Virus record (IMG/VR): IMGVR_UViG_3300009182_000030
Span: 1 to 64,000 of that record
Strand: one strand, 5' to 3'
Length of the DNA stretch: 64,000 bases
Source of the DNA: a virus
The translations under genes were made by a program, and so were the position numbers. Positions within the stretch are counted from its first letter, which is position 1. Every line of letters starts with the position of its first letter. Shown piece after piece: positions 40,386 to 58,918 of the stretch. The notes beneath the pieces were generated by a model that was given only the letters and a program-made list of their open reading frames with translations, had not been told where the DNA came from and did not search any database.

Positions 40386-41051
40386 ATGGCAGAAATAAAC
40401 GAATTTATTGCACTTGTAAAAAATGAAGGATTGGCAAGAACCAATCGCTTTGTGGTTTACATCACACCACCAGCAAGATTGTTGGGGGTAGCAAACAATA
40501 CGAAATTAAGATTTCTTTGTGAATCAGCTTCAATTCCTGGCATGAATTTTTTATCTAATCCAGTAATGACATATGGTGAACAAAGGGAAGTAATTTATAA
40601 TCGTTCTTTTGAACCTGTTAATCTTGAGTTTATGTTAGACCAAGATATGGAAATTAAAAGATTCTTTGATTCTTGGCAAAATTTAATCATTAACCCAAGA
40701 ACAAGAATGCTGACATATTATGAAAACTATATTGGAACTGTAGAGATCTATCAATTAGATAATTCTGGAAAAGAATCATCTAGATATATTGTTAGATTAA
40801 ACGAAGCATTTCCAAAATCAGTTGCGCCAATATCATACAGTTATGGTAATAAAGACATAACAAAATTATCTGTTGCCATGGAATACAAGTTCTGGGTACC
40901 ATTAACAACAGCAAATAAAGGTGGCACTACTGGACAACTACAAGTTTCTCCGCAACCAAAGTTTGGAAAAATGGGCTTGGATACTGGTGGATTATCTGGA
41001 CAAAATAGTTCAGATATACCATCAGGTGGCAATAATGATACTCCTGTATAA
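40386..41051 (+). CDS. Tail tube family protein (gp54 initiator or gp19-like, 221 aa)
   Basis: Shows the contractile tail tube pattern: GLARTNRFVVYITPPARLLG, FLCESASIPGMNFLSNPVMT, YGEQREVIYNRSFEPVNLEF, then 'MEIKRFFDSWQNLIINP' and 'LSVAMEYKFWVPL'. These residues form the beta-barrel of gp19 and of the related gp54, the tube initiator on the baseplate. gp19 normally lies beside sheath gp18, while here the neighbours are baseplate and terminase genes, so gp54 is favoured. The polar C-terminal 40 residues are an extension. It follows the preceding gene by 4 nt. Confidence 0.75.
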   Translation: MAEINEFIALVKNEGLARTNRFVVYITPPARLLGVANNTKLRFLCESASIPGMNFLSNPVMTYGEQREVIYNRSFEPVNLEFMLDQDMEIKRFFDSWQNLIINPRTRMLTYYENYIGTVEIYQLDNSGKESSRYIVRLNEAFPKSVAPISYSYGNKDITKLSVAMEYKFWVPLTTANKGGTTGQLQVSPQPKFGKMGLDTGGLSGQNSSDIPSGGNNDTPV

Positions 41052-41073
41052 AAATAAGAATAAAGGAATCAAA

Positions 41074-41526
41074 ATGGCAGAAGAAATTAAAAAAGACGAA
41101 GATTGGATGCAGAAAAAATGGAGACCAGCCATGGGCTGGATGTACATGATTATTTGTACACTAGATATGGGTGTGTTTCCAGTAATGTGGAGTTTGTTAC
41201 AAGTGTTTACGCATCAAACAATTACACAATGGAACCCACTAACACTACAAGGTGCTGGTTTGTTCCACTTAGCAATGGGTGCTGTTCTTGGTATCGCAGC
41301 TTGGGGTCGTACTCAAGAAAAACTCGGAGGCGCAGCAAACAATACAACTACTACCACACCAACAGCAAGCACCTTCGGCTCAGCTATGCCAGCAACACCT
41401 AGCATTTCTGCGCCAGTATCAACACCAAGCGCAAATCCATTTGGGGCAACAGACAATAGTAACCCATTTGGATCAACACCTCCAGCACCACCAGCTGGGA
41501 TATCTAAAGGAAAAATAATTGATTGA
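41074..41526 (+). CDS. Three-TM holin-like membrane protein (150 aa)
   Basis: ATG 41074 has AAGGA 6 nt upstream. The protein begins MAEEIKKDEDWMQKKWRPAM, then two or three hydrophobic segments: GWMYMIICTLDMGVFPVMWS, and after WNPLTLQG the segment AGLFHLAMGAVLGIAAWGRT. This WRP...W(T/N)PLTLQGAG...GAVLGIAAWGRTxEK pattern is the 3-TM holin family also found in gene transfer agents. It would form lesions in the inner membrane at lysis. A Thr/Pro/Ala-rich polar tail (95-150) is an addition. The last 8 nt overlap the small terminase gene. Confidence 0.75.
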   Translation: MAEEIKKDEDWMQKKWRPAMGWMYMIICTLDMGVFPVMWSLLQVFTHQTITQWNPLTLQGAGLFHLAMGAVLGIAAWGRTQEKLGGAANNTTTTTPTASTFGSAMPATPSISAPVSTPSANPFGATDNSNPFGSTPPAPPAGISKGKIID

Positions 41527-41942: not shown

Positions 41943-42653
41943 ATGAAGTTGCCTGTATATAAACATCCTGTCTATACATTAACTCTACCATCAAATGGTA
42001 AACAGATTAAGTATAGACCATTTTTAGTAAAGGATGAGAAAAATTTGTTGCTTGCGCAGCAGAGCGAAATTGAACTGAACATGATTGATACATTAAAGAC
42101 AGTTGTAACTGACTGTATTTTGGATAAAAATGTTGATGTTGAGTCTATGCCAATTTTTGATTTAGAATATATCTTTACCCAACTACGTGCAAAATCAGTT
42201 GGTGAGATGGTAGAATTATTATTCACATGCAGAAATACTGAATGTGATGAGAAAACAAAAATCTCTTTCAAGATCGATCCAGTTCTTGTTAAAGAAGAAG
42301 GACATACAAACAAAATTGATTTGTTTGATGGTGTTGGTGTTGTAATGAAATATGCCAGCGTAAATTTATTACATGAAATTGCCAAATTAGATTTGAACAA
42401 TCCAGATGAGATTGTCAAATTGATTACTAAAACAATTGATTACATTTATGATTCTGAATCTGTATATCCAGCTAGTGAACAGAAAGAAGAAGATTTGATT
42501 GCATTTGTTGAGGGATTACCAAGATCCCCTACAGAAAAACTTAAGAATTTCTTTCAATCGCCACCAAAACTACAACAGAGAGTTACTTATGATTGCCCAA
42601 AATGCAGCAACCATAACGAATACGATGTAGAAGGTATTGAAAGTTTTTTCTAA
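41943..42653 (+). CDS. 26: Baseplate hub assembly protein gp26 (236 aa), zero-frame product
   Basis: Matches the T4_baseplate/gp26 family: YTLTLPSNGKQIKYRPFLVK, DEKNLLLAQQSE, 'DVESMPIFDLEYIFTQLRAKSVGE'. Two Cys pairs (CRNTEC near 97 and CPKCSNHN near 221) could bind zinc. GGAG precedes the ATG. The last codons are AGT TTT TTC TAA, containing the slippery heptamer T TTT TTC (42644-42650). A -1 slip here bypasses the stop and adds 62 residues (see next entry). The position just before the tape measure is that of the tail assembly chaperone genes of other long-tailed phages. Confidence 0.85.
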   Translation: MKLPVYKHPVYTLTLPSNGKQIKYRPFLVKDEKNLLLAQQSEIELNMIDTLKTVVTDCILDKNVDVESMPIFDLEYIFTQLRAKSVGEMVELLFTCRNTECDEKTKISFKIDPVLVKEEGHTNKIDLFDGVGVVMKYASVNLLHEIAKLDLNNPDEIVKLITKTIDYIYDSESVYPASEQKEEDLIAFVEGLPRSPTEKLKNFFQSPPKLQQRVTYDCPKCSNHNEYDVEGIESFF

Positions 42654-42682
42654 TTTGTCTTAGCCATGAAAGTTTGGTAAAT
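42644..42682 (+). promoter_or_regulatory. Candidate -1 programmed frameshift signal
   Basis: Heptamer T TTT TTC at 42644-42650 is in the X XXY YYZ register relative to gp26, followed at once by the TAA stop. A bulged stem (TTAGCCA at 42660-42666 with TGGTAA at 42675-42680) starts 9 nt downstream. Weak stem, but spacing fits known signals. Confidence 0.6.
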
Positions 42683-42838
42683 TATTATCAGATTAACTTT
42701 GGGTTGTTACAGCACCATAAGTATTCGCTTGAAGATTTAGAAAACATGATGCCGTTTGAGCGAGAGATCTACGTTACTATGTTAATAAATTACCTAGAAC
42801 AAGAAAAAGAACGAATCAAGGAAAGACTTAAAAGATGA
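42650..42838 (+). CDS. gp26 C-terminal extension reached by probable -1 frameshift (62 codons)
   Basis: In the -1 frame after the slippery site the reading is open: it passes through HESLVNYYQINFGLLQHHKY and SLEDLENMMPFEREIYVTML to the end ERIKERLKR. It ends with TGA at 42836-42838, which overlaps the ATG of the tape measure gene (ATGA). No ATG with a ribosome site opens this frame; only TTG 42674 or ATT 42653 could start it independently. A weak hairpin (TTA-g-CCA pairing with TGGTAA) begins 9 nt after the heptamer. The helical, charged composition fits a GT-type chaperone tail. Frameshifting is inferred, not shown. Confidence 0.7.
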   Translation, partial: LICLSHESLVNYYQINFGLLQHHKYSLEDLENMMPFEREIYVTMLINYLEQEKERIKERLKR

Positions 42839-44697
42839 GACTAGTCTTAGATAGAATAGAAGATCAGCAGTCAGGAAGCACCAAACTAAAACAGTTTGCA
42901 GGTGACTTAGCAGACACACTCAAATCTACGTACGAAAAGAAAATACGTCCAGGTGCAATGGGTGGGATTCCTGGCGCAGGTAAGTTTAGTTCTTCATTTC
43001 TAGGATCTCTTGGATTTACTGGTCTTGCTGAATCAGTAAAAGAAAATGCTGAAGCAAAAGAAGCCAAACGACAAGAAAAAGAAAAGTTCGTTGGCGATTT
43101 CCAGCAATATTCTGATGCTGGTAAAACACTATCATCAAATACAGCAAGAGATGTAGCTGAATCTTTATATGATGAAATTGAAGCAAAGACAAAAGAATTA
43201 AAGAAACTTCAAGAAGAAGCTGATAAACAAAAGAAAGCTGGATATGGAGTAGATCCAGAAAATGCAAAGAAACAAGAAGAACTACTCAAAGCAATTCAAG
43301 CAATCGATCCAAGAAATAAAGGTAAGGGAGCAAGTGACAAAGATATTCAAGCTGTTGATGCTGATAATAAAAAAATAGAAGATGGAAAGAAACAAGAAGA
43401 AATAATAAAGGCACTTGACCCAAACAAAAATCAAGGATCAAGCGACAAGAACATTCAAGCAGTTCAAGCTGATGAAGCGAAGATAGAAACTGCTGAGAAA
43501 CAAAAAGAAACATTTGAAGTTAATAAAAAAGAGCAAGAAGATTTAACTGCTCTCTACACCATTACCGATGACCACTTCAAGAAACAGGATAAGTGGAATG
43601 AAGATTCCATGAAACTTCTTGAAACTATTGCTGCCAATGGAACAGGTGGCGGTGGTGGTGGAGGTGGCTTACTATCATCAGCAGCTGAGATGGCTGGTGA
43701 TTTAATGGGCAATGGTAAGGGTAAAGGTGGTGGTAAATTAGGTAAGTTGGGTAAGGTAGGTAAATTCCTTACTGGAAATGCTGGTAAAATTGCTGGTGTT
43801 GGTGCTGGTTTATTATCTGTTGGTACTGCTGCTTACGAAGGATATAATGAATATAATCAAGCTGACGAACAAGTTAAGTCAGGTGAAATTACCAAAGAGC
43901 AAGGGCAAGAAAAAAAAGGTGAAGCAGTTGGTGGCGCAGTAGGTGGTGCTGCTGGTGGATGGGCAGGTGCTTCAACAGGCGCATCAGCAGGTGCTGCGAT
44001 TGGAACACTGCTGTTTCCTGGAGTTGGTACTGTTATTGGTGGTGCTCTTGGTGCTGCAGCAGGTGGTGCTCTTGGATATTGGGGTGGTAAAAAAGTAGGA
44101 CAAACAGTAGGTGGCGGTGCAGTAAAAGGTTATCAAGCACTTGGTGGTAATGATCCAAATTCTGGTGCAATGGAAAATGTTGATGCGATGGGCAACCCAA
44201 CTGGTATGTCTAGTGATAGTTCTCCACCATCCAACGCAGATCCTAAGAAAGATAAACTAGCAAGAGATTGGGCTTGGTCAATTATGACTGAGCAAGCAGG
44301 AGATAAAAAACCTGACGCATCTATCAAAGCACAAGTTGATACTATCATGAAAACTGATACTCAACTACAAACACAAGCAAAAGCATATCTCGAAAATAAA
44401 AAAGCTGGTGCTAAGAAAGTTGACAAATCGCAACAAATATCCAAAGTTGAAGCACAACCAGAAAGAGTTTCACCAGATACAGGTAATGCTCTTGCTCAAA
44501 GAACTAACGAAGTTGAAGATGCTAGATCTGCTGCTCAGAACAATTCAAATATAGTAAATGCACCACAATCTAGTGTAACAAATATTACGAATAATAATGG
44601 TGGTGGAAAAGAATCATCTAAGCCATCTGCAAGAAATGATGAAACCACTTACCAAAGATACCTAGATAGAAGATATTATCCAATGCGCGATTTTTAA
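42835..44697 (+). CDS. 29: Tail tape measure protein, gp29-like (620 aa)
   Basis: Length is close to T4 gp29 (590 aa), the tape measure/hub protein. Residues 60-260 are strongly helical and charged (EAKEAKRQEKEKFVGDFQ and Lys/Glu/Gln-rich repeats with 'ASDKDIQAV' and 'SSDKNIQAV' units). A Gly run near 270 leads to an Ala/Gly zipper hydrophobic region (about 310-420), as in tape measures that insert in the membrane during DNA ejection. The C-terminus ends YQRYLDRRYYPMRDF. It starts within the stop of the gp26 extension (ATGA). Identity rests on length, composition and position after gp26. Confidence 0.75.
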   Translation: MRLVLDRIEDQQSGSTKLKQFAGDLADTLKSTYEKKIRPGAMGGIPGAGKFSSSFLGSLGFTGLAESVKENAEAKEAKRQEKEKFVGDFQQYSDAGKTLSSNTARDVAESLYDEIEAKTKELKKLQEEADKQKKAGYGVDPENAKKQEELLKAIQAIDPRNKGKGASDKDIQAVDADNKKIEDGKKQEEIIKALDPNKNQGSSDKNIQAVQADEAKIETAEKQKETFEVNKKEQEDLTALYTITDDHFKKQDKWNEDSMKLLETIAANGTGGGGGGGGLLSSAAEMAGDLMGNGKGKGGGKLGKLGKVGKFLTGNAGKIAGVGAGLLSVGTAAYEGYNEYNQADEQVKSGEITKEQGQEKKGEAVGGAVGGAAGGWAGASTGASAGAAIGTLLFPGVGTVIGGALGAAAGGALGYWGGKKVGQTVGGGAVKGYQALGGNDPNSGAMENVDAMGNPTGMSSDSSPPSNADPKKDKLARDWAWSIMTEQAGDKKPDASIKAQVDTIMKTDTQLQTQAKAYLENKKAGAKKVDKSQQISKVEAQPERVSPDTGNALAQRTNEVEDARSAAQNNSNIVNAPQSSVTNITNNNGGGKESSKPSARNDETTYQRYLDRRYYPMRDF

Positions 44698-58842: not shown

Positions 58843-58918
58843 TGGTGCTGCCTAGTAGAATCGAACTACTTTCAATGGTTCTTCAAACCACCGCTATGAC
58901 CACATCAGCTAAAGCAGC
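58843..58918 (-). tRNA. tRNA-Phe (GAA)
   Basis: Anticodon GAA in loop TTGAAGA, acceptor GCTGCTT/AGGCAGC, discriminator A, encoded CCA. Confidence 0.88.

Follow-up and report, generated by a model that had tools for sequence, protein, structure and literature searches.

A probable -1 ribosomal frameshift joining gp26 to a gp51-like extension in an uncultured T4-like phage

Gene arrangement and homology to T4 gp26 and gp51

The gp26 gene of the uncultured phage IMGVR_UViG_3300009182_000030 ends in a run of Ts directly at its stop codon, and an open -1 frame continues from there to the next gene. Is this frame a gene of its own, or is it reached by ribosomes that slip at the end of gp26? An earlier note on the same 64-kb stretch of DNA (hereafter the window) had proposed the latter, with a G/GT-like pair of proteins made by -1 frameshifting just before the tape measure gene, and this proposal fits all comparative evidence. 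Judged from the sequences, the phage very probably makes a pair of tail assembly chaperones (TAC), TAC-N and TAC-NC, through -1 ribosomal frameshifting. The features of the locus in the window are as follows.

41943..42653, + strand: gp26, the putative TAC-N, 236 aa, with the C-terminus ...EGIESFF before the stop
42629..42634, + strand: Shine-Dalgarno-like AGAAGG, ending 9 nt 5' of the heptamer; probable frameshift stimulator
42644..42650, + strand: slippery heptamer T TTT TTC, in the gp26 register
42651..42653, + strand: zero-frame stop TAA, abutting the heptamer
42650..42838, + strand: -1 frame extension, the putative TAC-C domain, 62 codons plus TGA; homologue of the T4 gp51 C-terminus
42835..44697, + strand: tape-measure-like gene, 620 aa; phrog_794, tail length tape measure protein (E 3e-12)

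The 3' end of gp26 reads AGT TTT TTC TAA (42642-42653), in agreement with the claim that T TTT TTC stands in the gp26 register and abuts the stop. Beginning 10 nt 5' of the gp26 stop, the -1 frame stays open as far as a TGA at 42836-42838, which overlaps the ATG of the tape-measure-like gene at 42835, and the 62 open codons described earlier are found at these coordinates. When all stop-to-stop ORFs of at least 60 codons on both strands of the window were scanned, gp26 was the sole ORF with a T6/A6 slip site four codons or fewer from its stop. The gp26 protein matched the Pfam profile T4_baseplate (E 9e-56) and phrog_150, baseplate hub (E 3e-59), and the extension matched phrog_634, baseplate hub assembly catalyst (E 3e-27); NCBIfam gave no match for gp26, the extension or the tape-measure-like protein. 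The site lies immediately 5' of the tape measure gene (phrog_794), as expected of a T4-like TAC-N/TAC-NC pair. Elsewhere in the window, a small holin-like gene (40999-41523) is located between the genes for the tail tube and the terminase small subunit, and one of the 26 tRNA genes (58843-58918) encodes tRNA-Phe with a GAA anticodon, the tRNA expected to slip on T TTT TTC.

By profile match, T4 gp26 can be aligned to the 236-aa product, and T4 gp51, an unbroken ORF, to the predicted 298-aa fusion from one end to the other. A profile built from 88 predicted fusions matched T4 gp26 with its gp26 part and was collinear with residues 15-244 of T4 gp51, crossing the slip point (E-values refer to a target set of two sequences). 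In tblastn searches with the window fusion, gp51 of T4-group phages was hit by single pieces that cover both parts; one such piece, query residues 19-281, falls within an annotated gp51-type gene of PspYZU05. Since the fusion is collinear with T4 gp51, the frameshift product exists elsewhere as an unbroken protein. These alignments suggest that gp26 is TAC-N, that the extension corresponds to the C-terminal domain of T4 gp51 and that the whole fusion corresponds to T4 gp51. The earlier assignment of gp26 as the G-like product thus stands; placing the extension alone at the position of gp51 has to be amended, since it appears to equal only the C-terminal domain of that protein. T4 differs from the present phage in that gp26 and gp51, the likely counterparts of TAC-N and the fusion, are encoded by two separate, divergently placed genes without a frameshift. 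The AlphaFold model of gp26 had a mean pLDDT of 94.9, and its highest-probability Foldseek match in the PDB was the HK97 tail assembly chaperone 2ob9 (probability 0.85, with a weak E-value of 0.54), which is suggestive only of a likeness to the HK97 TAC fold. The model of the 62-aa extension gave no useful fold match in the PDB.

Conservation of the slippery site and coding of the extension

The first relatives were gathered from IMG/VR with gp26 as query, and every one of them retains the site. Against the bias of this query, 80 more loci were retrieved by the extension peptide alone, and TTTTTT was in register in 80/80. The 104 loci in total, from IMG/VR and from phage records (Kyanoviridae, Emmerichvirinae, Pootjesviridae, Schizotequatrovirus, Menderavirus, Busanvirus and Chakrabartyvirus), were reduced to 94 non-redundant ones. 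The alignment of relatives that had been suggested as a check on the conservation of the heptamer had a clear outcome: T TTT TTN is in register at all 94. Its last base is C in 48 loci, T in 42, A in three and G in one, and the gap between heptamer and stop is 0 or 1 codon in 88/94. The codon 5' of the heptamer is always AGT, GAT, AAT or TCT. As the Ser, Asp or Asn codon ends in T every time, the synonymous choice exceeds what the protein needs; AGT makes up 83% of the Ser codons at this position vs 22% in the rest of gp26. The joint probability of this pattern is about 10^-42.6 given the codon use of each gene, a value that assumes independent loci and is indicative only, since the 94 loci are mutually related and products of probabilities overstate their independence.

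The extension evolves as a coding sequence, with 8099/3741/16032 substitutions at codon positions 1/2/3 in pairs of at least 70% identity. That it has no good start of its own, as noted earlier, was borne out: close to its beginning the window offers a single usual start, a TTG at 42674 after eight codons, and 46/94 loci lack ATG, GTG and TTG all the way from the upstream stop to codon nine. In 39 start-less loci LSHESL, the first conserved stretch, carries 1441/793/2687 substitutions at codon positions 1/2/3 and so evolves as protein. Since this stretch is selected as protein and no start precedes it, it must be reached from gp26. An ATG near the beginning of the extension occurs in 15/94 relatives, some of which could therefore also make it separately.

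This bears on the possibility that the extension is translated by itself as a small protein, the "gp51" of cyanophages, through termination-reinitiation or from a non-standard start close to where gp26 stops. Public records do annotate it as a separate gene, and in S-PM2, Sf-FR1, Moby, V07 and D482 an ATG lies 2-5 nt 3' of the base that opens the gp26 stop; the window carries ATT there. However, an independently started gene is disfavoured by the 46 start-less loci and by the coding pattern of LSHESL, which lies before any start, and such a gene would give no reason to keep the heptamer; we therefore regard this explanation as very improbable. Less probable still, to the point of being barely credible, is that RNA polymerase slips along the T run and produces a shifted mRNA. 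The heptamer is T TTT TTT at 42/94 sites, with the T of the stop codon often extending the run, but the window and 47 other loci have six Ts only, followed by C, whereas runs of nine are quoted for such slippage in bacteria (PMC5009743), and the register of the heptamer is bound to codons.

Candidate stimulatory signals and proposed mechanism

A -1 frameshift on T TTT TTC could be stimulated from either side of the heptamer. That the shift is real and driven by a downstream RNA stem was suggested by a bulged stem reported in the earlier note, and a hairpin can indeed be drawn at 42671-42694. It was no better than shuffled sequences, however (z = -0.9 and -1.06), and no consensus RNA structure was present downstream of the site in 24 relatives. 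The stem was thus rejected as a stimulator, a 3' stimulatory stem of the dnaX type is not supported at the locus, and a stem-driven shift seems highly unlikely.

Upstream of the heptamer, GG is found at -11/-10 in all 94 relatives, within a conserved LEGL motif. Codon choice there is skewed, with GAG at 54% vs a background of 28% and GGG/GGA at 51% vs 32%. Over the relatives, pairing with the anti-SD sequence has a mean energy of -6.1 kcal/mol vs -4.9 kcal/mol for synonymous shuffles, 0/60 of which reach it (z about -5 to -9); the signal is the strongest in the last 48 codons of gp26 and persists in 45 representatives. As in dnaX-type sites, an SD-like element at proper spacing is thus found across the relatives beyond what the protein sequence accounts for. 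The AGAAGG of the window is weaker than the average of its relatives (-4.6 vs -6.1 kcal/mol). The SD-like element probably helps the slip and is more likely to be the stimulator than the downstream stem.

What the sequences themselves show is a conserved slippery site, a coding -1 frame and homology to T4 gp26 and gp51; from these we infer the slip itself, its efficiency and the effect of the SD-like element. Most ribosomes on gp26 would end at the TAA at 42651 and release TAC-N of 236 aa. Pairing between AGAAGG (42629-42634) and 16S rRNA would hold a minority in place; with tRNA-Phe occupying both the P and the A site, these would slip by -1 on T TTT TTC and continue to 42838, giving the 298-aa TAC-NC fusion as the equivalent of T4 gp51. 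The chaperone function would follow by analogy with lambda G/GT: TAC-N may coat the product of the following gene, the tape measure protein, and TAC-NC may recruit tube subunits. SD-like element, heptamer and stop would form a compact, testable signal for the ratio of the two chaperones in T4-like phages.

Known systems and related loci

The TAC genes of T4-like phages were reportedly identified by Vladimirov, Gautam & Davidson in 2022 (Virology 566:9-15), who are also said to have made the gp26/gp51 assignment. The slippery sequence of lambda gpG/gpGT differs from T TTT TTC, and the spacing between SD-like element and heptamer in E. coli dnaX is about 10 nt, similar to that in the present phage. 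In dnaX an SD stimulator 5' of a -1 heptamer is established (PMC5009743), but dnaX adds a 3' stem-loop, has another heptamer and is an unrelated gene. Lambda gpG/gpGT likewise slips by -1 shortly before the short form ends, immediately 5' of the tape measure gene (PMC5009743), but no sequence similarity to the present pair has been shown.

PMC12846349 credits Vladimirov et al. (2022) with the finding that TAC-N genes of T4-like phages have polyT slippery sites, and PMC10885494 cites the same work for other T4-like phages, in which one gene is short and a second one is longer and fused. The frameshifted TAC pair in T4-like phages is thus already published, and the present phage, alike in the kind of gene pair and in the polyT slippery site ending TAC-N (as related in PMC12846349 and PMC10885494), is a clear new example of something mostly known. 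It differs in being uncultured, and the probable SD-like stimulator and the lack of a supported stem add to what is known; no description of either was found in the literature accessible apart from the paper of Vladimirov et al. (2022) itself. Literature searches for frameshifting of cyanophage gp26/gp51 gave no direct report, only works citing Vladimirov et al. According to PMC12846349, TAC genes of Vandenendeviridae and Andersonviridae also have a conserved -1 frameshift at a T run ending TAC-N, but these are other families and their motif is GTTTTT rather than T TTT TTN.

On balance we favour the view that the TAC frameshift of T4-like phages relies, across many T4-like families, on a two-part signal without 3' RNA structure (an SD-like element placed some 10 nt 5' and a stop-adjacent T TTT TTN), and that Ackermannviridae keep the -1 layout around another site, NTT TTC A.... 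The stand-alone gp51 annotation in many records of cyanophages and relatives is probably wrong. In such records the extension appears as a free-standing gp51 with varying, probably wrong starts (L002, 3220-3393; L112, 3271-3414), and in those of Aswh_1, ACP17 and Atu_ph04 it is unannotated. In the Ackermannviridae loci L018, L108, L114, L115 and L116 and in L106 (Vibrio phage K355), a gp51-like domain (...SIFEISESMPWHLD...) also lies in the -1 frame after gp26, and in May, Guerrero, phiMAM1 and phiA8-29 it lacks a start codon near its beginning; the loci of this group have no T6 heptamer and carry a conserved NTT TTC A before the gp26 stop, possibly a different slip site of the single-tRNA type U_UUC.
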